From Odiellus spinosus (Eukaryota; Arthropoda; Arachnida; Opiliones; Phalangiidae): DNA of 64,000 nt. Every line of letters starts with the position of its first letter. Position 1 is the stretch's first letter. A program made the position numbers and the translations under genes. The DNA is taken from the NCBI GenBank assembly GCA_963920705.1, contig CAWUCO010000180.1:1-64000 (forward strand), read 5' to 3'. The notes below the pieces were generated by a model. The model did not search any database. It saw nothing but the letters and a program-made list of their open reading frames with translations, and was not told the origin of the DNA. This document shows, one piece after another, positions 805 to 61,519 of the stretch.

Positions 805-1702
805 TTTTGACCGAAACAATTTTAGGTTTTTTTTTTTTAAATTATAGCGTAATGTATTGCTAATTTTGGCAGATTAAATTCTTTTTTTTTTTGGTTCAAG
901 AAATAGGGTCAAATTTATTCTTTTTTAAGGGTCTGATCTAATTTATTTCGAAAATTTTTAATGTGTATATGCATATTTTAATGCTCCTAATCTATTGAAA
1001 TAAAAACGTTACTATAGTCTATGTCTTCATTGTCGCTTTAATGTGAAGCAACTCTTGGAGTTTCTCCAGGACAATGCTACAGCAGCAGCTGCTGTCCTTG
1101 AAAAACTACAGGAGGCGCTCTAGTTATAAACTCCAAGACATGGGCAGTACCTTTATCTTCGGATAGAAATTTGGCAGCTATAGTAATCAGAAATAGAAAA
1201 AGAGTTATAAAAAATATTTCCAGTAATTTACGTCAAGACCACGTTGGATTTTCTTCAAACGGATTGACACATGATACTAAATCTCACAGGGAATAAAGTA
1301 GTCCGTGTCTACTCCCTATAATCACGACAAACATATTTTATTAAATTGTAAATATATAATAAGGAGAATGACATTGACACCCGAGTCTATTATATTCTGA
1401 AAAAAAGCTCTAGTGAAAAACCTAGCTTTATAAGAAAAGACCAACAATTTAAGGCACTTCGGGCAATTTAAATATTTAAAGGGAGGGCGAATAGAAAATC
1501 GAGTGATTTGTATCTGAATTCTGCAAAATAAATTGTCACGTAATGTAGACACGCAACCTGACTCGATTCGGGTCTTGTCAAATAGAACTTAGTCTTTAGA
1601 AATTGATAAAAAAAATCGCGAGGCTGTTTTTACAATTCTACAGAATAACGAAAGAAATCGGCTTTCCAAATGAGAAAACATATTCTAATTTGGCCAAAAT
1701 GG

Positions 1703-2661
1703 ATCTAGGATAGTTCGGTGTAGGATAATTGGCTGCCGGAATATTCGGTTTGGGGAAAATTGGGTGCACGGAAAACTCGGTGTTTCAAAAAATTTATTTT
1801 CAATTTAATTTTCCAATTTATTTTCCAATTTTAAAAAGAAGCGTGGTGTGCTACACCAAAAATATACACCTTTCCCACATTTCACTATTTTGCTTTATAG
1901 GTCTATTGAACCTTAATTCTTACTAATGCTGAATAAAAATTATAGCATTTAATTGAGGCTTCAATCTATCTTTAATTGAGACCCTGGTACAAATCTCGAA
2001 AGACCGAGATTAACTAACCTAACCTTACCTATCGTAGTAAAAGTGGGATGGGCTAATTCAAGGGATTAACGAACCTTACCTAATCTTACCTAAAATATTA
2101 CGAGAGGAACGGTTTAGCCCGAGCTAGGGATTACCTAGTTGGAAGGATGGGCTATTTCCATAACCTAATTTAACCATACCTTAAAGATTACAAGATGGAA
2201 TGGGTAGCCCGAGGGATTAACTACTTGGAAGGATGGGCTAATTTGAGGAATTAAATAACCTAGTCTTGCCTAAAATGTTACAAATAGCCCGAGCTAGGGA
2301 TTAACTAGTTGGAAGGATGGGCTAATTTGAGGAATTAAATAACCTAGCCTTACCTAAAATATTACAAATAGGCCGAGCTAAGGATTAACTAGTTGGAGGG
2401 ATTGGTTAATTAGAAGGATTAACGAACCTAACCTTACCTTAAAGATTACCAGATGGACGGGGTAGCTCGAGGAATTAACTAGTTGGAGGTATGGGCTAAT
2501 TCGAGGGATTAACTAACCTAACATTATCTAAAATATTATTTGCACCGAATTTTCCGCCCAAACCGCACCAAATATTCACGCACCCAATATTCCTAACAAC
2601 AAATTTTCCGGCAGCCAGTTTTCCGGCAGGCAATTTTCCTGCACCGAACTATCCGTATACC
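1703..2661. mobile_element. MULE-like non-autonomous element with repeat-built TIRs (family C)
   Basis: Both ends read GGATAGTTCGGTG(T/C)AGGA in inverted orientation. They continue into several degenerate copies of a roughly 15-nt unit (AATTTTCCGGCAGCC type). The flanks carry GGCCAAAAT at 1692-1700 and 2662-2670, a 9-bp match within 11 bp, as expected for a target-site duplication. The insertion lies inside the arms of the 1546-3031 element. The core holds a separate tandem repeat. There is no coding capacity. Assignment to Mutator-like elements rests on target-duplication length and TIR style only. Confidence 0.6.
1985..2545 (+). repeat. Tandem repeat, about 110 bp, with CCTAACCTTACCTA phrases
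   Basis: Units repeat the phrases AACCTAACCTTACCTAAAAT, ATTAC, TAGCCCGAGCTAGGGATTAAC and GGATGGGCTAATT about five times with small deletions. The array forms the core of the element at 1703-2661. The CCTAA flavour resembles the arthropod telomere repeat, but it is interleaved with other sequence and is not a telomeric array. Confidence 0.65.
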
Positions 2662-2692
2662 GGCCAAAATCATTCTAATTGAATAATTCCAA

Positions 2693-2802
2693 CAGAATTC
2701 GACCAAATGAAAAAACCGGAATTCAACAAAAGTGAGGCAAAATTTTAAATGCCTTTGGTCTACTTATGTTGAATTCGGGGTATTTCATTAGGTCGAATTC
2801 TG
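2693..2802. repeat. Palindrome with about 36-bp arms
   Basis: CAGAATTCGACCAAATGAAA at 2693 is matched in inverted orientation by the sequence ending GGTCGAATTCTG at 2802, with a short loop between. It lies in the right arm of the 1546-3031 element and has no counterpart in the left arm. It is probably a small foldback insertion. Confidence 0.6.
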
Positions 2803-3093
2803 CAGGAATTTTACAATTTGAACCATTTTTGACAAAATTAGAAGACTTTTTCTCGTTGGGAAAGCCGATTTATTTCACTATCCTACGGAATCGTATTGAA
2901 TTGAACAGTAAAACCGACGCCACGCGCGTATGTAAAAACAGCCTCGCGAATTTCAATTTCTTGTGATTCAATTCGCGAACTTGTCGAGAGATTAATTTGA
3001 CAAGGCCCATTCGCGTCAGGTTGCGTGTCTAAATATTCTTGTTGATAATAATCATGTGACCTTGGTTTTTTTTTCGAGCCCTTCCTGTCATTA

Positions 3094-8269: not shown

Positions 8270-8727
8270 TATCTAGTGAACGAATCAACTTGCGTATCTA
8301 TTCAATTACATCAAGAACAACACTGATCGCGTTTAAAAGCCTTATCAGGCAAATGAATTAACTTAAGACGTACCACCGAACCCTGGTCAGAACTCTAATC
8401 GCGTTTATATCTCTTATTTTAAGAATGGATTAACATGATGTGTTTATTAAGATCATATTTCCTACTACAGTAATAAGAACACATAACATGTTTAAACGCT
8501 TTATCTCCTTTTTAATTCCTATTTTCGTGTATGGATTAACTTGCTTTTAGTTAGATCTATTTTCCTAACAGACGCGTAAGAGCACTGATCGCATTTAAAG
8601 GGTTTATTGGACGAATGGATTAATTTGTGTCGATCAAGTCTATGTTTGAACTTACAAGCGTAAAAACATTGATCACATTTAAACGGGCTTATCGGGCAAA
8701 TGAATTGCCTTATGTTTATTTAGTTCA
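8270..8727 (-). pseudogene. C2H2 zinc-finger pseudogene fragment
   Basis: Antisense reading shows repeated remnants of C2H2 finger modules (FKCDQCSYA...KHKLIH...DKPFKC style), recognisable from the recurring strings CATTTAAA, CTTATC(G/A)GGC and GTAAGAAC. Frameshifts and stops break every module. It is the left half of a degenerate finger array that resumes at 10293 after the foldback insertion. Confidence 0.6.
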
Positions 8728-10292
8728 AAGAACAACCCAAACGGCCCATAATAATTTGGGTAACGTAATACTAAAATTTTTTGTTTCGCCACTAGTAAAA
8801 TTTTATTGTGATACTAAACTAAGGTTGTGTCCTCACCTTTCTACCACAAATATAATCATTTAACCATTATAGTCTGCGAATACATATCAATTGAAGTTTA
8901 GCTCGATAATGTTAAAGATAGGCCACATTGTTGGATTCGACAATGGAGTAGACTGTCTTCGCCCACCTGAAATCAGTTGAAATTGTGAATATTAGTAGAT
9001 ACCCGATAGATAAAGATTCTGGGAAAATATCGTTTTGTAACTGCCATGATATTTTTCTCAGCAACGATTTATACTACCCAGAATTTTGACATAATTTGAG
9101 GTGCGGAAGACCTAAACGCCTGTAAAAGTGTTCAACCTGCCGAACAACTAAGTTTTGCAGCAAAGCAAATTCAAGGAACGAGGCACAGACTATACAGCTA
9201 ACTCGTATAGTTTTTGTGTTCTGAAAAAACAAAGAAATAACACCGAAAAAGTATACTGTACTGGTTTTTATTAAGAAACACTTTATGAGTAATTCAACGA
9301 AAAATACAATTTTAGTGGCATTATCTTTCAAACAATGTTAGGTAAATCGTCCAAATCACCAGCATCGTCGCAGACTGCACGCAATTTAGATTGATACCAG
9401 CTACCGCTATCTTCGTGTCGTTTATAGCCCAGGTACCAAATAAGGCTGCTAACGTGAGCACAAGTTCCGATGGTCAAGTTCCCCCCTTTACAGTTGCAAT
9501 ACCACGAAGTAACTGAATCAATCCCGATACCATTAGGAACGTATCGAATCAAAGCCTGATGCGTGGCTAAGGCAGAGTACTAACTCCCTACGCGAACACG
9601 AATTAGGTCTTTTTCCACTTGGCAAACTTCATCGTTGAAAGAGCCGGACTTTTCAATAATCAAAGCGACGTAATATTCCGCGTGCTTTGCTTTAAAGTCG
9701 CTCATTTCAAAAAAATTGTTATTTTTCGTTGAATTACTCATAAAGTGTTTCTTAATGAAAACCACTACAGTATACTTTTCGGTGTTATTTCTCTTTGTTT
9801 TTTCAGAACACAAAGACTATACGAATTAGCTGTATAGTGTGTGCCTCGCTCCTTGAATTTGCTTTGCTGCAAAACTTTGTTGTTCGGCAGGTTGAACACT
9901 TTTACAGGCGTTTAGGTCTTCCGCACCTCAAATTATGTCAAAATTCTGGGTAATATAAATCGTTGCTGAGAAAAATCCCATGGCAGTTACAAAACGATAT
10001 TTTCCCAGAATCTTTATCGTGTATCTACTAATCAAAATTTCAACTGATTTCAGGTGGGGGAAGACAGTCTACTCCATTGTCGAATCCAACGATGTGGCAT
10101 ATCTTTAACATTATCGAGCTAAACTTCAATTGATTTGTATTCGCAGACTAAAATGGTTAAATGATTATATTTGTGGTAGAAAGGTGAGGACACAACCCTA
10201 GTTTACTATCACAATAAAGTTTTACCAGTGGCGAAACAAAACATTTTAACATTACGTTACCCAAATTCCTATGGGCCGTTTGGGTTGATCTT
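8728..10292. mobile_element. Foldback element with about 580-bp inverted arms and a SWIM ORF
   Basis: The left arm (8728-9310) and right arm (9713-10292) are near-identical inverted copies. They start AAGA(A/T)CAACCCAAACGGCCCATA and differ by scattered substitutions. The 400-bp loop holds most of a SWIM zinc-finger coding region on the minus strand. The element splits a C2H2 finger module: the host halves read TTATTTAGTTCA on the left and TTTCTCATGACAAGCG on the right. No clear target duplication is visible. Long inverted arms around a short loop are the hallmark of foldback transposons. The arm similarity suggests a recent origin or gene conversion. Confidence 0.75.
9328..9813 (-). pseudogene. 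SWIM zinc-finger protein fragment, one in-frame stop
   Basis: One minus-strand frame reads from about 9813 to 9328 with a single TAG at 9580-9582. The first part includes VEKDLIRVRVGS and the second IGIDSVTSWYCNCKGGNL followed by TCAHVSSLIWYLGYKRHE. The CxC...CxH pattern (CNC...CAH) defines the SWIM zinc finger. This wording (liRVRxxS, GIDSxTxWYCxC, CAHVxSxIWYLGY) belongs to an uncharacterised SWIM protein family common in arthropod, cnidarian and fish genomes, probably transposon-derived. About the first 33 codons lie in the right inverted arm. The product is a fragment with no start region. Confidence 0.65.
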
Positions 10293-10356
10293 TCTCATGA
10301 CAAGCGTAAGAACACAGATCGCATTTAAATGGCTTATCGCGCGAACGACTCAACTT
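10293..10356 (-). pseudogene. C2H2 finger remnant right of the foldback element
   Basis: GACAAGCGTAAGAACACAGA followed by TCGCATTTAAATGGCTTATCG is the antisense core of a C2H2 finger and continues the array interrupted at 8727. It runs straight into the 183-bp satellite. Confidence 0.55.
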
Positions 10357-11240
10357 GGAAATTTGGAAAAAAAGGCCATTTTATTAACTTTTTATTAAGC
10401 GTAACTTTTAAACTAAGCGAGGTCCAGCTATATCACTAGTCTTAATCGATAGATAATTAAATGTTCAATAACGTATTTAAATTATAGAACGATCCTATGT
10501 GTGTGAAAGGAGTTATTAGGCAAAATATTCTTCCCCCCAGCGAAATTTGGAAAAAAAGTCCATTTTACTAACTTTAATTAAGCGTAACTTTTAAACTAAG
10601 CGAGGTCCAGCTATAACACTAGTCTTAATCGATAGATAATTAAATGTTCAATAAATAATTTAAATTATAGAACGATCCTATGTGTGTGAAGGGAGTTATT
10701 AGGCAAAATATTCTTCCCCCCAGCGAAATTTGGAAAAAAAGGCCATTTTATTAACTTTAATTAAGCGTAACTTTTAAACTAAGCGAGGTCCAGCTATAAC
10801 ACTAGTCTTAATCGATAGATAATTAAATGTTCAATAACGTATTTAAATTATAGAACGATCCTATGTGTGTGAAAGGAGTTATTAGGCAAAATATTATTCC
10901 CCCCAGCGAAATTTGGAAAAAAAGTCCATTTTACTAACTTTAATTAAGCGTAACTTTTAAACTAAGCGAGGTCCAAATATAACACTAGACTTAATCGATA
11001 GATAATTAAATGTTCAATAAATAATTTAAATTATAGAACGATCCTATGTGTGTGAAGGGAGTTATTAGGCAAAATATTCTTCCCCCCAGCGAAATTTGGA
11101 AAAAAAAGGTCATTTTACTAACTTTAATTAAGCGTAACTTTTAAACTAAGCGAGGTCCAAATATAACACTAGTCTTAATCGATAGATAATTAAATGTTCA
11201 ATAACGTATTTAATTTTTAGAACGTTCCTATGTGTAGGAT
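10357..11240. repeat. 183-bp satellite, about 4.8 units, alternating A/B types
   Basis: CAGCGAAATTTGG recurs at 10538, 10721, 10904 and 11088, a period of 183-184 bp, with a first partial unit from about 10357. Units 1, 3 and 5 share ATAACGTATTTAA; 1 and 3 also share GAAAGGAG and GGCCATTTTATT. Units 2 and 4 share ATAAATAATTTAA, GAAGGGAG and GTCCATTTTACT. The real repeat is therefore a dimer of about 367 bp. It sits between zinc-finger debris and the truncated LINE. Confidence 0.85.
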
Positions 11241-11252
11241 GGGAGATATTAA

Positions 11253-15617: not shown

Positions 15618-16090
15618 TTATAATATGAAATAACGGCAAATCGGAGATTCGAGCAATTGAATTAACTTGTGATTGATTAGATAGTCTCTCGTATTATAAG
15701 GGTCTACCCCCATTTCGCCCAAAACATTTGGCCCAATTCCCATTTGGCCCAATCTCAAATAATCTAACCTAACCCTACCTAACCTAACAATTGGGCGAAA
15801 TGGGAATAGATCATTTTGGGCGAAATATTTTGGGCAAAATGGGAACACACCATTATGAGGGTGAGAACACTAATCTTTTATCAGACGCGAATACTCACTG
15901 ATTGGATTTAGAAGGTTTGTCTTAATCACATCCTCTCCATTGTCAATTAGATTCATATCTCTAGATTGAAGTGTCTCCCGGTTCGAATCAGTAAGAGACT
16001 CGTTAGAATCACTAAGGCTTTCCTTCTTGACGTGGAACCCTGATCAGAACGCTCGGCGCCTTTAAATTTGTTATTTCGCGAATGGAAAAC
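15618..16090 (-). pseudogene. Second zinc-finger gene relic (N-terminal module and one finger)
   Basis: Reading minus, 16040-15880 encodes KKESLSDSNESLTDSN and MNLIDNGEDV, near-copies of the KREYLSDSNESHTDSN and KLIDNGEDV modules of the neighbour at 16091-17275. The following finger is split by the 148-bp element at 15704-15851. The far half (YLINHKLIQLLE) resumes on the other side. This shows tandem duplication of a zinc-finger gene. Confidence 0.6.
15704..15851. mobile_element. Mini MULE-like element, unit TTCCCATTTCGCCCAA (family A)
   Basis: Inverted ends are built from CCCATTTCGCCCAAAA-type units around a short CTAACCTAACCC core. The flanks are ATTATAAGGGT (15693-15703) and ATTATGAGGGT (15852-15862), an 11-bp duplication with one mismatch. 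The insertion splits a zinc-finger module. Same family as 39600-40266. Confidence 0.7.
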
Positions 16091-22361: not shown

Positions 22362-23865
22362 AGGGAGTCTATTCTCTAACTTCATTCGGATCGAAAGCTG
22401 CTCGAATCATTCGGAATTCGGGTTGTCTGGGCCAAAAATACAAATAAGCGTATTCTGTAGGGCTCGAATCCGAATCATTCGGTTCGGGTTGATTCGAACC
22501 ATTCGGCGGCCGATAGAGCCGTCCGAATCAAGTTTCCTCTCTTTTTGAGTGTTTTCCCCCTTTCTTTCAGCCCCGTTTCTCCTCGTCTCAAGGTGTTTGT
22601 ACGTAAAATTTAACCGCCATGTTTCATCAACTACAAATCAAAATAATCAAATTTTCGGCAATAAAAAACTACCCGTGGTCAATTAAGTAATTAGAATTGT
22701 ATCTTAAACGTGTCGATTGCGTAGGGGCCCATCTATTTACATTTATCTTAGATTTTTCGGTTGAATAGGTAAGGTTAACGAGTCAATGTTTTTAGGCCTT
22801 GGTTGATAATACCCGGCTCCGTCCCAAGGTTGGTAGAGTCAAGAGATATTCGCTGGCTCCGTCCGACGGTCCGAGGCTCTTGCCAATTAATTCAATTTGA
22901 CCGTCGAATTTTGACGGAGCTTCGAGAATTTGGACCCGGGCGGCTACCAATATTTTAAGCGTAAACGTATACCAACTTGCCGGCGATTTTTTTTTTGTTA
23001 GTCAATAATTATACGCTTTTCGCTAAATGATTGTATTTATTTTCAATTAAATTTAATCATTTTAAGTTTAACGGTAGATGATTGTATTTATTTTAAATTA
23101 AATAACATAAAAGTTTAGCGCTAGATGATTGAATTTATTTTATATTGATATTAAATCTAATAAGTAAAAGTCTAGTACGCTAGATGATCGTATTTAAATT
23201 AAATTAATATTAAATCTTATGATTTGGAGCATTACTCTGAATTATTGTTTAATTACGTATCAAATTTATTTCACGAAAGGATTCTTCTAGATAAATACCA
23301 ACGATTGGTATTTTTATTGCCATCTAAATTTAAATTAATATGGTTATTTAAACGAATGGCATTATGAAAACCATATAAACTACATAAGTCTGAAATTACC
23401 ATTTTATTTAATCGTTTATTGAATAAAGAATCATTATTCATATACTAACCCTTAATTCCAAATAAGTTTACACTCTGTTTCATTAAATTTAAAAAATAAA
23501 AATAACTAAGAGCCATATTCATAATTTGATCAATATAATAATGCTAAATTTCCCAAGAAATCAAACACATTTGATCGAGTTGAATAATGTCCCAAAACTA
23601 TTGTTTTAAAAATCTAAATATTTTAAAATCTTCCCGCCCGAATTCTGACCAATAAGAGAGAAATAATACCTCGCGATCTCCTACTTTCTCCACATAAAAT
23701 GACGTACACTATGATTCGGATTCGGGCTCGAAGGGATCCGAATCACCATTCGAATAAGGGTTAGAGAATAGGCTTTTTTGAATCAAACCCGAATGAAGGC
23801 GATGCGAATGATTCGAACTCTCCGAATTCGAATGCTTTGGATTTTTTTAGAGAATAACCTCCCTG
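22362..23865. mobile_element. 1.5-kb element, TIR CAGGGAG..TATTCTCTAA, GAATCATTCGG subterminal repeats (family D)
   Basis: Ends are CAGGGAGTCTATTCTCTAA and, inverted, CAGGGAGGTTATTCTCTAA. Inside each end are many degenerate units on the theme CGAATCATTCGGATTCGGG, inverted between the two ends. A second TTAGAGAATAGG motif precedes the right end. The core is AT-rich with repeated GCTAGATGATTGTATTTA. Comparison with the related flank near 24090-24115 shows the uninterrupted target. No ORF of note. Confidence 0.65.
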
Positions 23866-34956: not shown

Positions 34957-36625
34957 TCTACAAATTGGTACCATTTTGGATGTTTTCTTGAAAAATTTAA
35001 AGTGAAGTCAGAGGCAGACATTTCGCATTTTGAATCAATACGTTGGGATGACCATGAAAAAATTCGCAATAAAATGACTGGTGAACGTTCAACGGGCACG
35101 CCTGCAAATACAGACCCTACTCAAAAAAGTGAATTTTCAACAGAGTACGCGAAGTCAAACCAATCTTCCTGCAGGGGATGCGAAGAATACCTCGCGAAAG
35201 ACCAACCTAGCATATCAAAAAATTTATAGAGAAAGTTATAAATCGAGGCGATTCGGTCCATTTCAACTTTGGTATGACGTTGATTTTTTCGCTCAAGCTA
35301 GAGAAGATTTGAATTTTCTCGACGATGGCTCCAAAATTCCAGGGTTTATGACACTTGATGTTGTAGATCAAAGAAAAACTGAAGAAAATAGACGTTTGAC
35401 CAGAAAAAAAAAAAAAAAAACTGAAAATCCTCCGGAAATCCTTGATGGAGAAATGAAAAAACTCGAAAACAAATCTCAAATGCTTTACAATTGGCGCGAT
35501 TCTCTGAAAAAACTGCTTAAAAAGAAGCGAAAGATGAACTTTTAGAGTATAATGATCTGGAAATTCCAACTGGAGAAGGCGAGATTCTCGATAGACTATC
35601 TGATATTATGGCTTTTGGCGCTTTTGTACCATGCACCGAATGCGATCAAGGACAGTTTGTTTTTGCCAGTAACGGGTATCAATGTACGGGAAATATAAGC
35701 GAGTGGAGTAAATGATTAAACGTTACGAAACTCCCCGCGAGAAAACCTTTCCTCATTCCAAACGAGTCCAAAGGAGAATTTCCTTTCTTTTAAAAGAGTT
35801 ATAAGAACGAGAAGCGTGATTGATATTTTCCCGCTAACGAACCTACGCCAACATTTAAAAAGACTTTATCATCTACATCGGGAATCAAAAGAGTGCCTCG
35901 ACCTCTACTCAACGCAAAAATTGTTTTGGTGGGTAATCTGTAAAGAAGCGTTACAGAAAACCATACCTCGATTAGGAGGCATTGTGGTTTCGCAAATTGA
36001 TAGAAATACAACTTGCGTTATTAGTACTAAGGAGGATGTTGAAAAAAAAAAGATAAAAAAGATCAGAGAAGCGGAAGAAAATGACCTACCCGTTGTTTCC
36101 GAAGATTTCATTGACGCTGTTGAAAAGAGTGGTTCGGTTCTAACGATCAAAAAGTACAGCATCGATAGCTGGGGTGGAAACCCGGAAGATAGAATTCAAT
36201 CAGCTACCGAAAAGAAGCTTATAAGTACGGGAAAAAGCGAGTTCCATTTCTCATCGAGTAAAAGCACCAAAGTCCATCTCGCCCTTAAAGGGAGTGTGCC
36301 TGTTGAACCAGATTCTAAACTCGAAGCCCGTGCTCATGTTTGAGAAGAGAAAAATGGTATATACTATGCTGTTCTTGGAAAAGTTGAAATAGCTCTTGGA
36401 ACAAACTCTTTTTAAAAGTTACAAGTATTAAAGTCCGACGAAAGAAGCAAACCCTGGATTTTTCGGAGCTGGGGTCGTGTTGGAACATCGATCGAAGGAA
36501 ACAAAACTGAAGAGTTTGAGGATGAGACCGAAGCTGTTGCGCAATTCAAACGTCTTTATGAAGAAAAAACTGTTATTCCCTGGGAGTTAAGAGTCTTACC
36601 ACCCAGGAGTACCATAAAGCTTTTG
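34957..36625 (+). pseudogene. PARP1: PARP1 pseudogene: zinc fingers, PADR1, BRCT, WGR; no catalytic domain
   Basis: PARP1 senses DNA breaks and makes poly(ADP-ribose). Plus-strand order: end of finger 1 (NWYHFGCFLEKFKVKSEADI, RWDDHEKIRNKM); finger 2 (FSTEYAKSNQSSCRGCEEYL, RRFGPFQLWYDVDFFAQARE); PADR1/finger 3 (NWRDSLKKLLKK, FGAFVPCTECDQGQFVF); BRCT (LGGIVVSQIDRNTTCVIS, LPVVSEDFIDAVEKSGS); and WGR (RSWGRVGTSIEGNKTEEFED, KRLYEEKTVIPWELR). Frames change at least four times and stops occur, for example in finger 2 (SKNL*). There are no introns where the functional gene should have many, which fits retrocopying. The catalytic domain and half of finger 1 are missing. Its 3' border is the start of an inverted partial copy. 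Confidence 0.85.
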
Positions 36626-37372
36626 TCGCGGGGAGTTTCGTAACGTTTAAACATTTACTCCACTCGCTTAAATTTCCCGTACAGCGATACCCGTTACTGA
36701 CAAAACAAACTGTCCTGATCATTATATTTTAAAAGTTCAATCATTCGCTTCTTTTTAAGCAGTTTTTCCAGAGAATCGCGCCACTTGTAAACCATTTGAG
36801 AATGTTCTTCGAGCTTTTTCTTTTCTCCATCAAGGATTTCCGGAGGATTTTCTGTTTTAATTTTTTTTTAAAGGTAAAACGTCTTTTTTCTTCAGTTTTT
36901 CTTTGATTGCTCTCTGATCTACAACATCAAGTGTCATAAACCCTGGAATTTTCGAGCCATCGTCGAAAAAATTCAAATTTCCTCTAGCTTGAGCGAAACA
37001 ATCTACATTATACCAAGCTGGAAATGGACCGAATCGCCTCGATTTATTACTTTCTCTATAATTTTTTGATATCCTAGGCTGGTCTTTCACGATGTATTCT
37101 TCGCATCCCCTGCAGGAAGATTTGTTTGGCCTTGCGTACTCTGTTGAAAATTCGCTTAATTGAGCAGGGTCTGTATTACCTGGCGTGCCCGTTGAGCTTT
37201 CTCTTTTCGTTTCTTTTGGAGTTAATGAAGTTCCTGAAGTTTCACTAGTCATTTTATTGCGAATTTTTTCCTGGTCATCCCAACGTAATGATTCAAAATG
37301 TGAAATGTCCGCCTCTGACTTCACTTTAAATTTTTCAAAAATACAACCAAAATGGTACCAATTTGTAGCCTT
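36626..37372 (-). pseudogene. PARP1: Inverted partial copy of the PARP1 pseudogene
   Basis: The minus strand repeats the first half of the neighbouring pseudogene: SEADISHFESLRWDDQEKI, FSTEYARPNKSSCRGCEEYI, SRRFGPFPAWYNVDCFAQAR and NFFDDGSKIPGFMTLDVVDQ. A block of about 95 bp (the DRLSDIMAFGAFVPCTE region) is deleted between two GATC strings. The finger 2 cysteine lost in the plus copy (WYDVDFF) is kept here (WYNVDCF), so the copies diverged separately or from a better ancestor. The copies face tail to tail and share the ends GCTACAAATTGGTACC-like and GAAACTCCCCGCGA. Confidence 0.8.
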
Positions 37373-39599: not shown

Positions 39600-40266
39600 G
39601 GTTTGTTCCCATTTCGCCCAAAATTATCTATTCCCATTTCGCCCAATCCTACTTCACCCAAACGTATTATCATTTGCCCCAAAATTATCGAATCCCAATT
39701 CGCCCAAACCAAAATTTCCGTGTCCCAATTCGCCCAATCCAACTTCGCCCAATCGTTTTATCAGTTAGTAAAGAATTATCTATTCCCATTTCGCTCAACC
39801 TAAAATTGCTTTTCCCGTTTCGCCTAAAATTGTTAGGTTGGGTTAGGTTACCAAAACTAATAAAGTAAATTGTTCTTAAGATTGAGTTGGGTTATGTTGG
39901 CTTGGGTTAGGTTACCAAAACTAATAAAGAAAATTGTTCTATAGATTGAGTTGGGTTAGGGTTGGTTGGGTTAAGGTAGGTTGGGTTGGGTTACCAAAAT
40001 TAATAAAGTAAATTGTTTAGTTACATCAAGAAGTGCGTGTAGAAATAATTAAACAGGACGAAGGAACTGATGAAGAGGATTTTGTTCGCATATGCCTTGG
40101 GTGTGGATTGGGAGAAATAAGAATTTGGCAAAAATGGAATTATGCGAAATGTGATTGGACGAAATAGGATTGGGCCTAATAAATTGGGCTGATATGGAAT
40201 TGGGCCAATTGAGTTTGGGCGAAATGGGAATTGGGCCAAATGGTTTGGGCGAATCGGGGTAGAACC
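39600..40266. mobile_element. MULE-like element, unit TTCCCATTTCGCCCAA (family A, long copy)
   Basis: The left end has about ten units of the form TTCCCATTTCGCCCAAAA(T/A). The right end has the inverted form TTGGGCGAAATGGGAATTGG. The termini are GGTTTGTTCCCATTTCGCCC and, inverted, GGTTCTACCCCGATTCGCCC. The core has four degenerate GGTTGGGTTAGGTTACCAAAA units. Only a weak GATTC match flanks both ends, so the target duplication is uncertain. Same family as 15704-15851. Confidence 0.7.
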
Positions 40267-41420: not shown

Positions 41421-41649
41421 TAGGGATGGAACGAAGCTTCGACTTCGGTGATATTCGGCCATTTAGCCGTAGCTTTGCTTCGGCCGAAGTTTAACTCATC
41501 TTCGGCCCAATATTGTTTTCTTTTTTCGCGTGCTTTTTGAATGAAGAAATCAAAAATATATCCGCAACAAATAAAACTAATTTCAGACTTTCTTAATCTT
41601 TATTAGTTTTTAATAATTTTTTAAAATAAAGTATTCAATTTAATACTTA

Positions 41650-43515
41650 TATCCAAGTAGTGGAAGGTTATGATGAATGAAGGCCAATTTCTCAGCATTC
41701 TGTGAGATGATCTTCATAAATATTCCCAGTTTCTGAAAACAGTCGTTCGCTGTAGACACTGCTGGCTGGAGCACTGAGGAATTTGCGGGCCAGGCACGCT
41801 AGATTCGGGAAGGTGGATTTGTTAACTTTCCAAAATGCAAAGGGGCATTCCTTCCTCCCTAGCAACGAAAGTGCGGAAAATGAGTTCCACTCCGATTCCA
41901 GTTGTTTATCCATCTGAGGCTCCACTTGATCTCTACTTTCTTCAGTTTGACTTCCTTCTTGTCCTTGGCTTTGACTCATTTTTGCAGCTTCCGTAATTTC
42001 GTCGTACACGTCGCAGAATGATGTGTGACGACTGTGACGAGCGGTCTTGGCAGATGGTGACCCTACCACTTCGGAACGAGCCTCGTCTATCACAACTCTA
42101 CCACCGTTATTCAGCTTGGTGAACTCTTCCTGCATCATTTTCTTAATAGGTTCTAGCTTATCCATCATGAACGCTAACTTGAATCGAGGGTCCAATGCGG
42201 TTGCCACAACGAAATGCTTCTTTTCTAACACATCTTTGAGGAATCGACGATCCAACGCCTTCTTCAGAGTCTCCTTCATGGTACCTACACCAGCATGAGC
42301 AGGATTTACTTTTGTGAGGAAACGGTTCAATGTCACAAGATTTGGAATCACCTCCGAAATTACGGAGAAGGAGCTACTGACTGATTTTGTAATTTCTTCG
42401 AATGGCTAAAGAAGAGCTAGCGATGCCTCGAGAAGATTCCATTGGTTCTGGGTCAGGTCCGAAATTTTTGGTTCTGGGTCAGGTCCGAAATTTTTGGTTC
42501 TGGGTCAGGTCCGAAATTTTTGACTCTGTGGCATAGAGTGCAAGACTTCTCTTTTGCTCCGACAATCTGTCAAGAAGGTAGTAGGTCGAATTCCAGCATG
42601 TTTTAACGTCCTGAACGAGCTTCTTGTTGGCCATATTCAACTCAGTTTGAATTTCTTTAAGTCGCGTGCAAGCTTTTGAAGAGTGGTTGAAATGAGTGAC
42701 AATTCCCCTTGCTGCTCCGATCATATCATGAATGGCTCTCTGGCTATTGATAGCATCTCCAATTGCTAGCTGCAGTATGTGAATGATGCAGGCTTCATTG
42801 TCAAATCCACCATCGTTAGCTCCCTTGACAATATTGGCGGCATTGTCACGAATCAGTAAATGACTTCTGTCATCTTGAATGGCCCAATCATCTCTCATCT
42901 TTGTCAGCATCTCGGCAATGTTTTCTGCGTTGTGTTTTGCTAGGAAACGTTGAACGCTGAGCACCGCGTGATTCAAAGCAAAATCAGGGGTAAGCCCGTG
43001 TCCAGTGAAGCTAATGATAATTTTGTCCTTGAAATAAGTACGGGATGGAACCTGCTGACAGAAATTTTTTTCTAAGTATAACGATATTTTACTGCATACA
43101 GCCTTTGAAATTGTGAATTTTTTCCATTTAATGACTTACCTTGTAGTTTGGCACAATCTAATTTATCAGGCGGAGAAATCCCTCATTTTCCACAATGGAG
43201 TAAGGCTGATTATCGAGGGCCATCATTTCACCTATTGAGTAATGTATTTCTGTAGCTCTGTAATCGTTGATGTTCCAAATTTTCATCCTCTCCAACACAG
43301 CAGCCAAAGTGGGTTGGCTGAAATTGGGCTGAATATCAACTGCAGTAGATGATTTAGCACTCTGGGCACCAGGCACCTGAACAGCTTTTCCACTTTCTTT
43401 CTTGATCATTTGCTTATATTCACTTTGATGCTTTCGCTCCAGGTGAGTCCTTAAGCTTGTTGTGCTTGCAGATTTACCCTGGCCTCCACGAGATAACTTA
43501 ACCTGGCACAAATTG
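41650..43515 (-). pseudogene. hAT (ZBED-type) transposase, inactivated
   Basis: Minus order: BED zinc finger (CQVKLSRGGQ, TTSLRTHLERKHQSEY); a possible intron (AAG|GTAAGT near 43138 to TTAG near 43075); QQVPSRTYFKDKI; then FTGHGLTPDFALNHAVLSVQ, HLLIRDNAANIVKGANDGGF and CIIHILQLAIGDAI; TCWNSTYYLLDRLSEQKRSL; FVVATALDPRFKLAFM; and the dimerisation domain FWKVNKSTFPNLACLARKFL, APASSVYSERLFSETGNIYE. The segment with the first catalytic Asp (between YFKDKI and FTGHG) is deleted. A tandem insertion at 42443-42525 disrupts the middle. A one-base shift near 41700 moves the last residues (NAEKLAFIHHNLPLL) to another frame. It cannot be active as it stands. Confidence 0.85.
42443..42525 (-). repeat. 27-bp tandem triplication inside the hAT transposase
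   Basis: GGTTCTGGGTCAGGTCCGAA plus ATTTTT occurs three times in a row. The coding original (SKISDLTQNQK) is present once in other hAT transposases by family logic, so this is a local replication-slippage expansion. Confidence 0.8.
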
Positions 43516-44018
43516 CATACGGCTTTAGTAGTATCCTCTTCGAAAACATCGAAGTAATCCCAAATAACACTTTTTTTAGGAATCAGCCATTTTTCGATCT
43601 ACCCCTATTTTCGAAATATTTTCCGAAAGACACAAAGATTTCTGAATTCTTGATGCCCTGGAATGACCGTTTTACCAAGTTTATTCTTCGAGGAGACCGG
43701 CAGAAAATGTTTACGAAGGAATAATTTTTTACTTTTAGTTTTACTTTTGATATGGAGTATGGACTGGTCAAGATAACTCTCCGTGTCAACGTAAAAAGAA
43801 AGCTTAGCATAAGTAGTATTAACTTAAGTACCTTGAATACAATTATATATTTATCGATCGAGTAGGTTTCATTAGAGTTTCTGAATTAAGGCCTAATTCC
43901 AATAAAAGAGTGGAAAGAGAAATATCAAAATAAAGTAAAGAAATGCGATTCTCATAAAATTCGGATAATTCCCGCTTCGTTCCATCTCTCGAAACGTGTG
44001 GCTACCTCCTAAAAGATT

Positions 44019-44933
44019 AATTATGTCCACTAGCGCAGTTCCTATTACCGCAGTTCCCATTAGCGCAATTTCCCATTAGCGCCGCTTCCTAATAACCGCT
44101 ATGTCCTAGACGCGCAATCCACTCTTTCCTAAAACTTTTTTTAACCCTACCTTCTAAAGGGTTTCCTGTTTCAGCATTTATTGTCTCAGAAAAACTAACC
44201 TAACCTAAACCACTGGATCACGTTCAAAAAGGATGTTTTTTAAAAGAGAATTCACAAATGAGCATTACCTAAATGAAAAATTTGTAATTTAGTAGTACCA
44301 CTTTGTCTTTTATTTTAGCATAAAAATAACTTGACCGCTATTAAAATTAAATCTGTAATTAAACCCGACGTAAAATTTACAAAACTGACCCACAACACGG
44401 AAAACAGCAAAATCATGCAAAACTTAACAGAAACACGTACGCAAAATTGAACAGAAACACGTACGCAAAATTGACCACTTAATCTATTTCGTTTTTTTTT
44501 TCGTTTTTCCTACATTATATGAAACTGCTAACAACAATTAAAACTGAAATGAACCGCAATTATTTTTAAAAATTTACATGAACCAAATAAATCGAAAACT
44601 ATAACATATCGTTAACCGTATGTAGGCTCGAACTCACTATCTTCTGGTTAGAAGCCGTCTATGCTAATCATTCCGCTACCGAACCAAGGCAACTCGCTTA
44701 AAAAAAACATTTATCTCCATATGGGAAACGGCGCTTATGGGAATTGCGCTAAAGGGAAACTGCGCAAATGGGAATCGGCGCTATTGGGAAACGGCGCTAA
44801 TGGGAAACAGCGCTAATGGGAATTGCGCTAATGGGAAATTGCGCTAATGGGGACGGCGCTAATGGGAACGGCGCAAATGGGAATGGCGCTAATGGGAAAC
44901 TGCGCTAATAGGAACTGCGCTAATAGGCATATA
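44019..44933. mobile_element. MULE-like element, unit TTCCCATTAGCGC, with tRNA-derived core (family B)
   Basis: Flanked by a perfect 11-bp duplication, CCTAAAAGATT at 44008-44018 and 44934-44944. The left end carries units CAGTTCCCATTAGCGCAATT; the right end carries about 13 inverted units GGGAAACGGCGCTAAT. The termini (TATATGCCTATTAGCGCAGTTCC and its left equivalent) are inverted repeats. The core contains a tRNA-like block on the minus strand. A second full copy is at 52888-53537 and half a copy at 47990-48118. Confidence 0.8.
44632..44690 (-). tRNA. tRNA-derived block (tRNA-Arg UCU-like), not a functional tRNA
   Basis: The minus strand reads GGTAGCGGAATGATTAGCAT, AGACGGCTTCTAACCAGAAG, then AGTTCGAGCC. 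The last matches a pol III B box and TTAGCATAGACGG resembles an A box. The loop CTTCTAA has the tRNA-Arg(UCU) anticodon, but the anticodon stem is mismatched. The same block, in the other orientation relative to the window, lies inside the second family B copy at 52998. Confidence 0.45.
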
Positions 44934-44944
44934 CCTAAAAGATT

Positions 44945-45260: not shown

Positions 45261-45389
45261 TTAATTAAAATATTTTTCACAAGGAGTCACTGCAGTTTTA
45301 TTTATCAATAATTTTATTGACTAAGACAACGTTTCGGAGCTATTACTCCGATAGTTAGGCTATCAGACGAGAAAGATAAGGATTTACGA

Positions 45390-45986
45390 ATGATCAAGGA
45401 ACAGTTATTAAATAGTGGATATCCCGAGAAAATGATCGACAGAGAGATTGAGAAACAGAAAGATAAGGATAGATTAACGGAGAAAAAAGAAAAGGAAAAA
45501 GATAGAATATGGATAGTTTTACCATATTATGAGGGTTTGAATGAACGCCTAAAAAGAAAGTTAGGGAAAATGGGAATAGATGTAGTAAGTAGAGGCACTG
45601 AAACATTAGAGAAAAAAATGGTAAATTGGGGAGAATATAGAAAACGGGAAAAAATTTTAGACGAAAATAAGAAAGGTATCATATACGAGGTTAATTGTAA
45701 TTGCGATTTAAAATATATTGGGGAAACAAAAAGGACGATTAGTGAAAGAAAAAAAGAACATAAATATGCGGTAAAAAGAGGGGAGGAAAAAAATGCGTTG
45801 GCAATGCATATAAAAAATAATAAAGAGCATAAAATTAATTGGGATAGTTTTAAAATTGTAAAAATGGAGAAAGATTACTGGAAAAGAAAAATAGGAGAAA
45901 GCTTAATAATAGAAAAAAAGGGAAATATGAATTTAGAGGAAGGGTTAAAAATTAAAGGTTGCTGGAAGAGAGGGAGGGGCAATTAG
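45390..45986 (+). CDS. GIY-YIG endonuclease domain of a Penelope-like element
   Basis: The 198-residue ORF has a charged Lys/Glu-rich start and then the endonuclease: KGIIYEVNCNCDLKYIGETK (the GIY-YIG core as GIIYEV and KYIGET, with a Cys pair), RTISERKKEHKYAVKRG (catalytic Arg, then Lys/His), ALAMHIKNNKEHKINWDSFK, and the metal-binding Glu in RKIGESLIIEKK. In the intact element this domain nicks target DNA at the C-terminus of a reverse transcriptase. Here the frame is open from ATG to stop. Upstream stops in the left terminal repeat show that the RT is gone. The open frame in a truncated copy suggests recent insertion. Confidence 0.85.
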   Translation: MIKEQLLNSGYPEKMIDREIEKQKDKDRLTEKKEKEKDRIWIVLPYYEGLNERLKRKLGKMGIDVVSRGTETLEKKMVNWGEYRKREKILDENKKGIIYEVNCNCDLKYIGETKRTISERKKEHKYAVKRGEEKNALAMHIKNNKEHKINWDSFKIVKMEKDYWKRKIGESLIIEKKGNMNLEEGLKIKGCWKRGRGN

Positions 45987-46179
45987 ATAAGAGGAGGTTT
46001 TGGAACCGGTTTGCATTAAGGGTAGATGGACAGGGATTTAAATGATTAAAAAAATTTTTTAAATGATTAGAAATTTTTTTAAAAGAATTAGAGTTTTTTT
46101 AAATGATTAGATTGTTAAAGTTTTTTTAAGTTGTATATATATAAAATATGTAATTAATGAAAGGGAATTAGTAGTGGAC

Positions 46180-46216
46180 CTGATGATGGAGTAATAGCTC
46201 CGAAACGTTGTCTTAG
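46180..46216 (+). ncRNA. Hammerhead-like ribozyme core in the Penelope terminal repeat
   Basis: CTGATGA (46180-46186), T, a stem GGAG/CTCC with loop TAATAG, GAAAC (46202-46206), then GTTGTC. The order CUGANGA-stem II-GAAA-short stem III-GUC is that of the type I hammerheads described in Penelope-like elements. The extra T before stem II and poor stem I pairing argue for reduced or lost activity. The left inverted copy keeps the stem and GAAAC but not CTGATGA. Confidence 0.5.
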
Positions 46217-46267
46217 TCAATAAAATTATTGATAAATAAAACTGCAGTGAAAAATATTTTAATTAAA

Positions 46268-47965: not shown

Positions 47966-47989
47966 TTCGAGGGTGGTTAAAGATGGGGT

Positions 47990-48118
47990 ATGTGCCTATT
48001 AGCGCAGTTCCCATTAGCGCATTTTTCCATTAGCGCGGTGCCCATTTGCGCCGTCCCCCATTAGCGCCGTTTCCCACTAGCGCCGATTCCCTTTTGCGCC
48101 GTTTCCCATTAGCGCCAT
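47990..48118. mobile_element. Half of a family B element (TTCCCATTAGCGC array)
   Basis: It starts at TATGTGCCTATTAGCGCAGTTCC, identical to the terminus at 52888, with about seven units of (TTCCCATTAGCGCCG). It then ends abruptly in the LINE at 48120. The other arm is missing, so the insertion was followed by deletion or recombination. Confidence 0.65.
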
Positions 48119-48119
48119 T

Positions 48120-49851
48120 TCTAAAAGCTTAGAAAGGTGGCTTAAAATAGAAATTGGTCTATAATTACATAGTTCCAAACGATCACCTGATTTATTTATA
48201 GGTGAGACAATGGCTAATTTTAACGACTCTGGGAATATCCCTGTTGTGAAACTCAGATTGATTATGTAAGTTAATGGCGGTTTAATATAATTAACAATAG
48301 TTTTTATAATTGCGGATCTAATGACCGATAGCGGAATTAAGGTTAAGAGAGTTTATTATTTAACGTACTTCGCATTCATCTACCGGGGCAAGAAATAAAG
48401 AGTTTTGAATTTGTTTAAGTTTTATCCCTTCAGTGTTTGGAGTATTTACTGTTTGATTCGTTAGGATATTGTTCGCGAGAGTCTCACCTATCGTAGAAAA
48501 ATAATTATTAAACATCGTAGCATACTTTACAGGGTCTCGAATCGCGTCTATTACAATATTGTTATCAGAACTGTTTTTTACTTTAGTTATGGGGATTTTA
48601 GGTTTAGTCCTCGAGGAGGCTTCGTTTATCGTTTGCCGTCTTTGTTAAGATTTTCAATTTTAGTCCGATAATAATTATTTTTTATAACTTTTATTAAAGT
48701 ATTTAAGTTATTTCTATATTTAATAAATTTTAACTTTAATTTAGAATTAAATGGTTCTTTTAAACATTTTAGCTTTAATTTATCTCTAATTTTTATCGAC
48801 GTTACCAATCCTAATGTCATCCAGGGTTTTTTAAATTTAACATTTAAATTTATTCTTATATCGCGTTTAAGAGTTGAGGCTAATTTTATGTAGAGATTGA
48901 GTGTATCCAAAAAAATTTCCAGGGCAAAGTTTACATTTGTCGATTTGTAAACAGTTAGCCATTTATCAAACTGGAGCCAAAAGTTAAGTTATCGTAATGT
49001 ATTTTAGTATGTTGTTTCAGTTTTTTACAATCGCGTGGTAATTCTAAATCACATTTTGCATTAATAATGATTGGATAATGATCTGTTATATTCGTTTCAA
49101 GTATAAAACTCTTAAAGTCAATATTATTTTAGATTTAACAAAACAATGGTCACTACATGTTTTTGAATGTACCGAAATTCTAGTATAATTATGTATAAGA
49201 GGTACATAGCCACGTAGACTTAAAATATCTAGATACTCAATACTGCCATCCTTCATTTCTGGTGAGATAATATTTATATTAATGTCTCGTATCAAATACT
49301 TATTTAATATGTTGAATTTATTACAGTCAGTTAGCAGTTGGTCTAGCTTCGGTAAAAAGTTCAAAAAGTTACTGGTCGGTGAGCGATATGCATAGATAAA
49401 TCGGTGAGCTATACGATTATTATGTCTAATATATAGGTAAATAGCATTTACTCCACCTATGTCTACTTCGGTGGATTCTATATTTAAATGGATTTTTGTA
49501 AAAACTAATATTCCATCATTTTGATTATTAAATTTTTATGTATAGGAATTTTGATAATCATTTAATTTAAATAAATCTAGGTTTTTACCTTCTAGCCAGC
49601 ATTCTAACAAAACTATGATATCAAAGTCGAGACCGAGGTTGTTTAAAAATAGTCTTAGTTCATCAAAATTTTTCGTGATGCTAAGAATGTTATGATGAAA
49701 AACTTTTAACCCAAATTTATGATTATTTTATTTTCTTACAGCAATCATTTGTTTTTAAATTGTGAGGATAAAGCTCTGCAGTATGGAAATTTATTTGGTT
49801 TGAGAGGTCAAAGTTTGAAACGAAGTTCATAAAATTATATAATTTTTTTTA

Positions 49852-51074: not shown

Positions 51075-54000
51075 TTAGTTTTGGTTTTCAAGTTGTTGAC
51101 TAATAATTACAATGTAAGAAACCACTGCACTAAACATCTGCAAAAAATAACAATTTCAACATTTGTAAGCTTCACAACGAACCCGTAGAGACTTACATTT
51201 ATAATTGAAGAATTGTTTATGACAAACATGTGAAGAAACGTAAACCCGGTGGGCTCACTCAAGAGACTCGTCATCCCCGAAATTATCTGAAAACAAAGAC
51301 GTAACTTTTTTGTGACGTTCATAGTGTATTGCTATTGCGGCTAATATTAATCGTTCGAATTGAGAGTTGGTAAAATAATTTCTCTACAAATGCAATACCA
51401 GCCTAACGAATACAAGGTGGATATGTATACAAAGCCGACGAGCCAGGTTCAGGAAAAAATGGTCTCCTTGATCGACCTTGATGACTACATATAAAGACAT
51501 CTTTTTCAATTATCACTCAAAGTTGGCCGAAAAGAGGCTTTTCCTACTGGTCTAACTATTTAAAAGGAGAGTGGAACCTATAAACAAGTGATTTCTTAGC
51601 GATCTACTGATTTTATCCTAAAATATCAAAGTTCTATTAACAAATTTATTCTGAAAAATAACTCGGGTTTAACTAAAATTCCTTTTGAAGCGTATATTAA
51701 ATCAATCATAAGAACCATTTTACGCGTCGATCCCGCAAATTTATAACTTACTGTAAGTTTATGCTCCGCTTTCATGGGAATCAAAGATATTCCATAAAGT
51801 TTAAAACTTATCTTCTGAGCCTGAAATAAAACAAATATTATCATTTATAATAGACATGTCTAAGAATCTGGTAGGAATTCCACGTGACAATGTTCTTTTC
51901 ATAGTTTCAGGAGTACATAAACGAAAGTAATTAAAATTTACCCCTTATTTGCGTATGTTTTCCCGATAAGGGAAAGAAAGAGGCTCCATAGTCTCTTAGC
52001 CTAGGATGTACTTCTAAATCATGGTGGAAATAATTCTTTTATATTATATCTACATACACATGCATAAACACTCTCTGTATTTTTGAGCAAAGAGAATTGT
52101 CCAAATTAATAAAGTTTAGGTTTATTGGTGCACAATGCTAAACTTCATGAAAAGAAAAATTCGTCAATCAAATGAAATATTAAGTAAAGAAATGTGTGTT
52201 TTTCGCCTTTATCATGTGGGAGCCGTGTGGGCAAATAACCTCGCTCTATTTTAACTCTTGCCTTTCATCCGGTACTTTTTTTAATATCGCAGTATCTTAA
52301 ATAGATGCCTCGAAATACAGATGTAGTTGGGGGAAGGAACGTAGCTTTCAACGCGTTTGTTCCAATTGTTGTCGCTCCTTAAGAAGGGCATATTTTCGTG
52401 TAACGTCGCGGTGTTCCCTCTTCGCGTTGCGGCCTTCGACACAACGTTGGTCAACAAATTTTGTGTAAAGGCCCATGCATTGTATTTCCCTTCATTTTTG
52501 GATTTTATGTCCGCAAAATAGTATGTCAGTTTAATTTTTAATTTTTTAGAGTTACATAAGTTAAAACCGAGGGGACTGACACTTAGGGAATTCGGCAGAA
52601 CTCCGCGAACTCTTAAACTTACGCTAACTCACTTCTACTCTCATAATTTTTATGCGAAGTCTTGCAAATTTTCAAAACTCTGGGAAATATTGGAAACTCC
52701 CACGAACTCCACTCGCGAGAACTCTCTCGAATTCGCCCCAACTCTTTCGAATCTGTAAGAGTTCTTAGAAATTAGGGAGAACTCAAAAAATTGGAACGAA
52801 TTCGAAGAACTCACGCGAACTCCGGGAACTACAGTGAACTCAGGTGTAGGTTTCCACCTTTTCGGTTAGAAAATGGAAATATAAGGGTATGTGCCTATTA
52901 GCGCAGTTCATATTAGCGCCATCCCCATTTGCGCAGTTTCCCATTAGCGCAATTCCTATAAGCGCGGTTTCCGATAGGGAGATAAACGTTTTTTTAGTTG
53001 GGTAGCCGTGATTCGTAGCGGGGAGGTTAGCATAGACGGCTTTTAACCAGAAGATAGTGAGTTCGAGCCTACTTTCGGAAAATGGTATGTTATAGTTTTC
53101 GATTAATTTGGTTTTAATTGTTGTTAGCAAATTCAGATAATATTGAAAAAAAAAACTAAATAGGTCATTTTTGCCTACGTGTTTCTGTAGAGTTTGGCAT
53201 GATTTTGCTAATTTCCGTGTTGTGAGTCAGGTTTGTAAATTTTGCGGCGGTTTTATTAAAGATTTAATTTTAATAAGGCTCAATTTTTTATGCTAAAATA
53301 AAGGACAAAATGTTACTACTAAATTACAAATTTTCCATTTAGGTAATGCTCATTTGTTAATTATCTTTTAGAAAACTTCGTTTTTGAATGCGATTTAGTG
53401 GTTAAGGTTAGATTAGTTCTTCTGGGACATTAAATGGTGACATTATAATGGGAAACTGCGCCAATGGGAACGGCGCTTATAGGAATTGCGCTAATGGGAA
53501 ACTGTGCAAGTGGGAACTGCGCTAATGGGCATAATTCAATATAAGTAGGGTAAAACCTTTTCCCGTAATGATTTTCTAAGAATCATTTTTTACCGTTTCC
53601 ATGGTCCTTTTAAAACTACGTTTTATGTACTCCTGATGGTCGCCGACGATTTCACCCAATTCCCATTAACCCATTTACATTTCCCTTAAAATGACTGAAA
53701 TTTAATATATACAGTGTAAATAGACTATATATAATGAGAAAGTATGGTTTGGCGTACAACTAAATATTTTCCCGTTCCTTGTAGTAGCAATTCAAAATGG
53801 GAAACTAATTTTCAAGGCTAAAATTTCTCTTTGAAAGTGGCTTTGGTTGAACGGAAATTGGGTCTTATGTATTTGGGTGAAACGAGAAATAATATTTTTG
53901 GTTAAAAGATAACCATTCTTAAATCTCGTTTTGGGTAAAATATGAAGAACCATCCGGGTTGTTTACATTGTTTGGTATAGCTGCTGCGCTGAAGAGTAAA

Positions 54001-60930: not shown

Positions 60931-61376
60931 AGGGGCCGGACATTTATTAAAAATTTGTACGGGATTTTGAAATCTTGGATTTTGCGTTGGATGTCGTGAT
61001 TTCTTGCCGGATTTCGGGATTGTGTCTCGGATTTCAAAATTTTCCCGGATATTGGATTTCTTCGCGGATTTCTGGATTTTTTTGCTGAATTTCTTGGCAG
61101 ATTTCTGAATTTTTCCGGATTTTGGATTTCTTGATTTTAATTTCAGATATCGCGATTTTTTTAACAGATTTCTTTATTTCTAGTCGGATTTCAAATTCTT
61201 CACGGATTTCTAGATTTCTTGTCGGATTTCGCGATTCTTTTTCGGATTTCGTAATGTTGGAGAAATTCTTTGGATTTTTAAAAAATCCAAAATCCATGTC
61301 GGATTTGTTGCTGTTTTTCGGATTTTGTTTCGGTTTTCGTCAGAAGTGTACGGGATTTATTCAAATGTCCGACCCC
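60931..61376. mobile_element. Element of CGGATTTCNNGATTT units (family F)
   Basis: The ends AGGGGCCGGACATTTATTAAA and, inverted, AGGGGTCGGACATTTGAATAAA enclose about 18 degenerate units on the theme GCGGATTTCTNGATTTTTT. Near the right end are two inverted AAAATCCAAAATCC copies. No ORF. No target duplication seen. The build matches families A-E. Confidence 0.65.
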
Positions 61377-61519
61377 TCGGATAAACCAAATATTTATGGT
61401 GTCTTGTTCAAATCCCGACCTCTAGATCCAGTATAACGCTATTCAGAATTGGGAGGAGCTTGCTATATTTGACGTATTTATGTGATATCATTTTAACCCT
61501 ATCACGAGCTTTCGAGGTC

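Follow-up and report, generated by a model that had tools for sequence, protein, structure and literature searches.

Mirror-image arrays of a short unit at the ends of three families of putative mobile elements in a contig of Odiellus spinosus

Short inverted arrays of a degenerate phrase recur, in several unlike versions, along a 64,000-nt stretch of the opilionid Odiellus spinosus (assembly GCA_963920705.1, contig CAWUCO010000180.1, positions 1 to 64,000), hereafter the window. Do they belong to one kind of mobile element, and what would have moved them? An initial annotation had listed six such families, A to F, and assigned them to a single lineage that keeps reinventing its terminal unit. 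Three of the six, A, B, and C, look like short relics of mobile elements that carry no protein and whose ends are mirror-image arrays of a phrase of 15 to 16 nt (Table 1). They lie in a region with coding pieces that include zinc-finger repeats, a beta-lactamase-family gene, and PARP zinc-finger and BRCT pieces (animal-type).

Table 1. Positions and structure of the arrays and associated features in the window; unit strands are from the weight-matrix scan.
Feature	Positions	Strand	Length	Units or structure	Ends or flanks
Element A1	15701..15851		151 bp	Three per end: 3 on +, then 3 on -	Flanks ATTATAAG / ATTATGAG
Element A2	39600..40266		~667 bp	Nine per end: 9 on +, then 9 on -	No fitting target duplication
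Element B1	44018..44935		918 bp in the register of B2	4 left, 13 right: 4 on +, then 13 on -	Flanks TAAAAGAT
Element B2	52886..53537		652 bp	5 per end: 5 on +, then 5 on -	Flanks AATATAAG / AATATAAG
Lone B end	47987..48121	+		8 on +, from 47993 in the scan	
Element C, non-autonomous	1701..2661			2 on -, then 4 on +	Ends GGATCTAGGATAGTTCGGTG / GGTATACGGATAGTTCGGTG
Probable target duplication of C, left copy	1692..1700		8-9 bp		GGCCAAAA(T)
Probable target duplication of C, right copy	2662..2670				GGCCAAAA(T)
Intact mirror arm of the palindrome entered by C	2741..2900	-		Inverted repeats I19 (82%), I21 (78%)	
E satellite	56401-57529		70-bp unit	~16 copies, one direction	
End types of these elements					GGTATGTGCCTATTAGCGC-type, GGTTTGTTCCCATTTCGCC-type

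The foldback-type TIR structure, that is, inverted ends composed of repeated short units, is clear for A and B and weaker for C. In the weight-matrix scan, every unit left of the centre of A1, A2, B1, and B2 lies on the + strand, and every unit right of it lies on the - strand. The phrase TTCCCATTAGCGC has 22 matches with at most one mismatch against 0.06 expected, and TTCCCATTTCGCCCAA has 11 with at most two mismatches against 0.05. The B matrix finds 37 matches in the window but 1 to 3 in each of five shuffled windows, and 35 of the 37 fall within the named arrays, among them those of a lone B end that is 84 to 86% like the right array of B1 and for which no partner end was identified. For the A matrix, there are 42 matches versus 10 to 16 in shuffled windows (n = 5); 24 lie within the named arrays, and the remaining 18 are about as many as chance would give. 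The C matrix is barely above chance across the window (22 matches versus 11 to 19 in shuffled ones). The units of C, about 15 nt long, point inward, 84-bp direct repeats lie internally, the two ends match each other in inverted orientation at 76% over 75 nt (E = 1.6e-8), and C has 33 inverted 8-mer pairs, where 200 base shuffles gave 22 at most.

The units of D, E, and F are essentially one-directional in the same scan, and the claim of inverted arrays of ~15-nt units in all six families therefore holds for the first three only. D was set aside with three units, all on the + strand, and 3 inverted 8-mer pairs (shuffle maximum, 4), and E was set aside with 16 copies all on the + strand and 4 such pairs versus a shuffle mean of 11.4. 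F comes closer to the annotated picture, with 32 inverted 8-mer pairs (shuffle maximum, 8) and an inverted terminal match of 14/16. It was nevertheless rejected as a family member, having 12 units on the + strand and a single one on the - strand (15.5 bits, at 61410), which lies outside its terminal match. Its inverted blastn self-match is confined to a palindrome at 61269-61291, and a search for flanking duplications of 6 to 10 bp, allowing one mismatch, gave none. Both D and F have features of their own. D, a 157-bp stretch (22378-22534), has a terminal match of 13/16, with 5 of 6 flanking bases alike, and is perhaps a small decayed inverted element. F, at 60931-61377, is a short element with ends AGGGG(C/T)CGGACATTT, which we take to be hAT-like in appearance, and internal CGGATTT repeats in one direction.

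Target duplications were sought by scoring every boundary pair around each element. B2 has an 8/8 duplication, AATATAAG, beyond which the adjacent bases differ, and its ends match at 15/20. The flanks of B1 are identical over 11/11 bases, CCTAAAAGATT, which in the register of B2 are cut to the 8 bp TAAAAGAT; its own ends match at 13/20 in that case, versus 14/20 with 10 bp and 15/20 with 12 bp (duplication 11/12). The flanks of A1, ATTATAAG and ATTATGAG, agree at 7/8 in the best end register (ends 15/20) and at 10/11 if extended. For A2, whose right end was placed at 40266 by likeness to A1 (40265 in some comparisons), no duplication fits the ends, and the best repeat (11/12) lies unevenly outside them. 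The candidate duplication of C, GGCCAAAAT, is matched at 9/9, with ends at 15/20. The 9 to 11 bp originally annotated for A to C is thus better given as about 8 to 9 bp: B2 has 8 bp, C has 8 to 9 bp, and B1 has 8 to 11 bp, all within the 8 to 11 bp of Mutator-like elements (8 to 9 bp in Muta), with 7/8 for A1 and none fitting for A2.

Element C entered one arm of a palindrome, and the intact mirror arm serves as an empty site for it. Joined and aligned with this arm, the flanks of C score 188 if 8 bp are collapsed, 185 if 9, 182 if 10, and 180 if none. The boundaries that had been annotated, 1692-2672, imply a 9-bp duplication, ATTCTAATT; the ends then match at 5/20, and the joined flanks score 140 against the arm. 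These scores (188 or 185 versus 140) argue that the duplicated word is most likely GGCCAAAA(T) and not ATTCTAATT, and the earlier boundaries are rejected. The margin of the collapsed over the uncollapsed alignment is small, and that over the ATTCTAATT alignment is large.

Could the arrays instead be minisatellites that were inverted by chance rearrangement and never moved? Tandem repeats with many different periods abound in the window (66 rows), as such an origin would have it, but the flanking duplications, the empty site of C, and the occurrence of B at two separate places as full-length homologous copies make it very improbable. B1 and B2 belong to the same family, lie in opposite orientation, and give a gapped alignment from end to end, in which the homologous end has 13 units in one copy and 5 in the other.

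The spacing of B units is either 15 (16 times) or 16 (14 times), with no other value. Across the 35 units, conservation is lowest at position 14 (0.60 bits), followed by position 2 (0.94) and position 15 (1.00), and the remaining positions carry 1.16 to 2.0 bits; the unit reads as a core of ~13 nt plus a short spacer. The outermost unit has its own base at position 2, a G in 5/5 outermost units versus 1/30 others (Fisher p = 1.8e-5, post hoc). The A units are spaced loosely (14 to 16 in 12/20 cases), and their weakest positions (n = 24) are 1, 10, 5, and 7, without the conserved core and variable 3' spacer of B. Unit order shows no conservation beyond chance, either among A arrays (p = 0.15 to 1.0, pairwise permutations) or among inner B units (pairwise p = 0.06 to 0.87 with all units shuffled and 0.26 to 0.995 with the terminal unit fixed; in a second scoring, 0.08 to 1.0 per pair and 0.10 for the sum). 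Homogenization within B arrays was rejected, with mean unit distances of 2.55 to 4.0 of 16 positions within arrays and 2.85 to 3.7 between them, not generally smaller within. A tRNA-like core suspected by eye in B1 and B2 was likewise dropped, as ARAGORN found none and Rfam gave none at E up to 1.

How far do the three families share a history? The initial annotation pointed to TTCCCATT, common to the A and B units, which by itself is weak evidence (unit A versus unit B, p = 0.056). The ends say more. Over the first 14 nt, A and B ends have a mean of 8.35 matching positions (4 x 5 end pairs), a value reached by 0 of 20,000 column shuffles (p = 5e-5, post hoc register), and longer spans give p = 5.5e-4 at 16 nt and 2e-3 at 20 nt (post hoc). 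All nine A and B ends have their outermost unit starting at nt 7, with the right end of A2 at 40266; the boundaries of the A2 ends and of the lone B end were set by this alignment alone, with no fitting duplication. With the same placement, 9/11 ends of A, B, and C start with GG (8/11 with 40265), the exceptions being the right end of B2 (GA) and the left end of B1 (TA). The likeness of C ends at 14 nt has p = 0.028 to A and 0.004 to B, and 0.006 to 0.05 at longer lengths (all post hoc), and the C unit compared by rotation with A or B units gives p = 0.44 to 0.87. A and B are thus probably of common ancestry, and the placement of C in their lineage is suggestive only; the proposal of one lineage survives in this narrower form, D, E, and F being without the architecture.

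It is quite conceivable, if short of an even chance, that A, B, and C are mobile but that C, or all three, come from unrelated lineages that converged on this architecture, which would be compatible with the other explanations taken family by family. The C unit is unlike those of A and B, the likeness of C ends reaches only p = 0.004 to 0.05, and the foldback structure is known in different superfamilies in the parts of the literature drawn on here (PMC3169594, PMC4079207). Against convergence, A and B ends begin alike, their first units sit at the same offset, and their orientation agrees.

Another part of the original proposal was that the two ends of a copy drift together. In the outer 50 nt, with identity counted over aligned columns, both pairs of homologous ends of A1 and A2 reach 94%, against 83% and 80% for opposite ends within one copy, and therefore A speaks against joint drift. 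B is mixed: homologous ends are 84 to 92% identical, opposite ends within one copy are 84% (B1) and 71% (B2) identical, and the right end of B2 scores 34 with the opposite-type end of B1 versus 30 with its homologue. One could go further and regard A, B, and C as stages that a single transposase lineage passed through within one genome, in which the outermost unit would be held by selection for cleavage, the inner array would turn over freely, and the unit sequence would shift with the DNA-binding domain of the transposase. This is speculative and we consider it rather unlikely, but if true, the arrays would be a readable fossil record of coevolution between a transposase and its sites.

Which enzyme might have moved the elements? 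Stop-to-stop frames of at least 80 codons overlap A1, A2, and B2 (six in all) but not B1 or C, and the six have no Pfam match at E up to 0.1. No MULE domain or Merlin (IS1595-type) transposase came up in 31 Pfam queries with selected frames of the window (one queried twice). The window also encodes a 2OG-Fe(II) oxygenase (PF13532), which we read as AlkB-like, a non-LTR-type reverse transcriptase, and a hAT gene. The hAT gene, in three frames, lies just beside B1 between likely 16-nt inverted ends, AGGGATGGAACGAAGC (41422-43989 with the ends); the copy at 41422 has a 94% inverted partner at 43974-43989, among the 25 of 41 pairs listed.

A transposase of the hAT or P superfamily, which also make 8-bp duplications, might have moved A, B, and C instead. 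The ends of hAT and P elements usually begin with CA. Those of A, B, and C begin with GG (9), GA (1), and TA (1), and the likely ends of the hAT gene, AGGGATGGAACGAAGC, are unlike them, which also led us to reject this gene, at 41.7-43.6 kb, as their source. The 8-bp duplication of B2 and the position of the hAT gene next to B1 would fit a hAT or P origin, and subterminal repeats are known in Ac/Ds. Additional binding sites occur in Galileo, but its three sites lie ~70, 570, and 710 bp from the end and not every 15 to 16 bp, according to the portion of the report used (PMC3688188). On this evidence, a hAT or P transposase is decidedly unlikely.

Relatives of the elements were not found in three scans of viral contigs, a collection that may omit the genome of the window itself, and these misses carry little weight. 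A scan of bacterial and archaeal contigs, where the host genome is possibly absent, matched two bacterial MAG contigs. In one (L001, whole contig examined), two GGAATGGGAAAAC phrases stand next to an inverted repeat, and the other (L002, last 1,043 bases examined) has a short ATTCCCATTCGGCGCT run; both are unlike A, B, and C and were rejected as relatives.

The window contains further repeats of other kinds. A long inverted repeat at 8727-10293, with arm pieces of 269, 227, and 67 nt that are 93 to 96% complementary, has zinc-finger-like repeats on both sides; its central short frame (9331-9579), which by eye we presume to resemble a SWIM-type zinc finger, has no Pfam match. A tandem repeat of 183 bp follows at 10358-11251 (4.9 copies, 94% matches). 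An inverted duplicate at 34958-37368, with arm pieces 84 to 93% complementary, spans a region with the PARP zinc-finger and BRCT coding pieces, and a perfect 63-nt inverted repeat at 45287-46250 surrounds a frame of 198 aa (45390-45986) for which Pfam gave no match.

We read A, B, and C as non-autonomous mobile elements because of their inverted arrays, mostly GG ends, duplications of 8 to 9 bp in C and B2 (8 to 11 bp in B1), two oppositely oriented full B copies, and lack of any Pfam domain in the six frames of at least 80 codons that overlap them. It is rather probable, in our judgment, that they are foldback cut-and-paste DNA transposons and that the enzyme mobilizing them is a Mutator-like transposase of the Phantom/Muta group whose gene lies elsewhere in the genome. 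Each unit would be a transposase binding site on a 15- to 16-bp period, and the outermost B unit, with its own base, would mark the end for cleavage. Inner units may be interchangeable, raising affinity and being gained or lost through slippage or unequal exchange. A and B would then be sister families in one lineage, with C perhaps a third. Several findings count against a Mutator-like transposase: no transposase of any superfamily is tied to the ends of A, B, and C, A2 has no fitting duplication, the ends of B1 agree slightly better at 10 or 12 bp, collapsing the duplication of C brings a small gain (188 or 185 versus 180), the spacing in A is loose, the A unit lacks the core-and-spacer pattern of B, the inner B units keep no common order beyond chance, and the comparisons of A, B, and C ends are post hoc.

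The same non-autonomous foldback elements might have been moved by a Merlin transposase instead. In the part of the Merlin report cited here, these transposons have a conserved terminal 5'-GG, duplications of 8 or 9 bp, and TIRs of 24 to 462 bp; in one family the 5' and 3' ends differ greatly, and in another, two copies differ in tandem-repeat number, one having a 12-bp tandem repeat (PMC8101967). The GG start of 9/11 ends of A, B, and C and the length of their duplications fit this description. The same part of the report makes no mention of inverted TIR arrays of short units and does not place short-unit arrays in the TIRs, whereas Muta1 has a 15- to 16-bp period in its TIR (PMC8101967, PMC5225508). 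The register of B1 and the tandem repeats reported for Merlin make a Mutator-like transposase slightly less likely and Merlin slightly more so, and we still regard Merlin as unlikely. Most arthropod MULE ends open with three G/C bases (PMC13359780), and invertebrate Phantom elements have duplications of 8 to 10 bp where these are indicated (PMC6446971), as far as the excerpts consulted go. G/C-rich first TIR bases, a Mutator-like (Phantom/Muta) trait, are found in A, B, and C and are common to Merlin.

The window offers a small natural series. For C, the palindrome that it entered also holds an empty site, and in B the two homologous arrays, of 13 and 5 units, have an outermost unit distinct from the rest. 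Should the genome carry many copies, such arrays could tell whether transposase binding sites change one unit at a time, one end at a time, or as a whole block.

The closest match found among known systems is the Phantom/Muta group of Mutator-like foldback elements, to which A, B, and C may belong. In the material cited from Aedes aegypti, Muta1 has duplications of 8 or 9 bp and nine copies of a 12-bp repeat with 3- to 4-bp spacers, Muta5 has a 15-bp repeat, Muta1 derivatives vary in copy number, and 10 of 12 long-TIR MULE families have short subterminal tandem repeats (PMC5225508), meaning that different subterminal arrays within one superfamily have already been described. The elements of the window resemble Muta1 and Muta5 in their duplications of 8 to 9 bp, short terminal motif, subterminal tandem repeats, non-autonomous derivatives, and several families per genome; the repeat plus spacer of Muta1 equals the 15- to 16-bp period of B, a likeness of architecture. 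They differ in that no transposase is seen here. Muta1 has a palindromic 10-bp terminal motif, and its excision has been assayed in laboratory yeast. Galileo, of Drosophila, is also foldback-like, with TIR tandem repeats whose further sites are bound by the DNA-binding domain of its transposase in footprinting and binding assays in vitro, but these sites are hundreds of bases apart and it belongs to the P superfamily (PMC3688188, as excerpted). Tetris is a non-autonomous foldback element with 8- to 10-bp duplications whose TIRs hold tandem units in varying number, but these units are ~220 bp long in the text available (PMC4079207). Tm1 of root-knot nematodes has a variable count of a ~14-bp motif in its TIRs and generally unlike 7-bp motifs at its two ends, comparable to the differing ends of B; it differs in its 9-bp duplications, four-domain TIR, nematode hosts, and known transposase, judging from the sections used (PMC3169594). 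The array-ended architecture is thus of a known kind, with precedents in mosquito and nematode transposons, and the elements as they stand look like ordinary non-autonomous foldback transposons.
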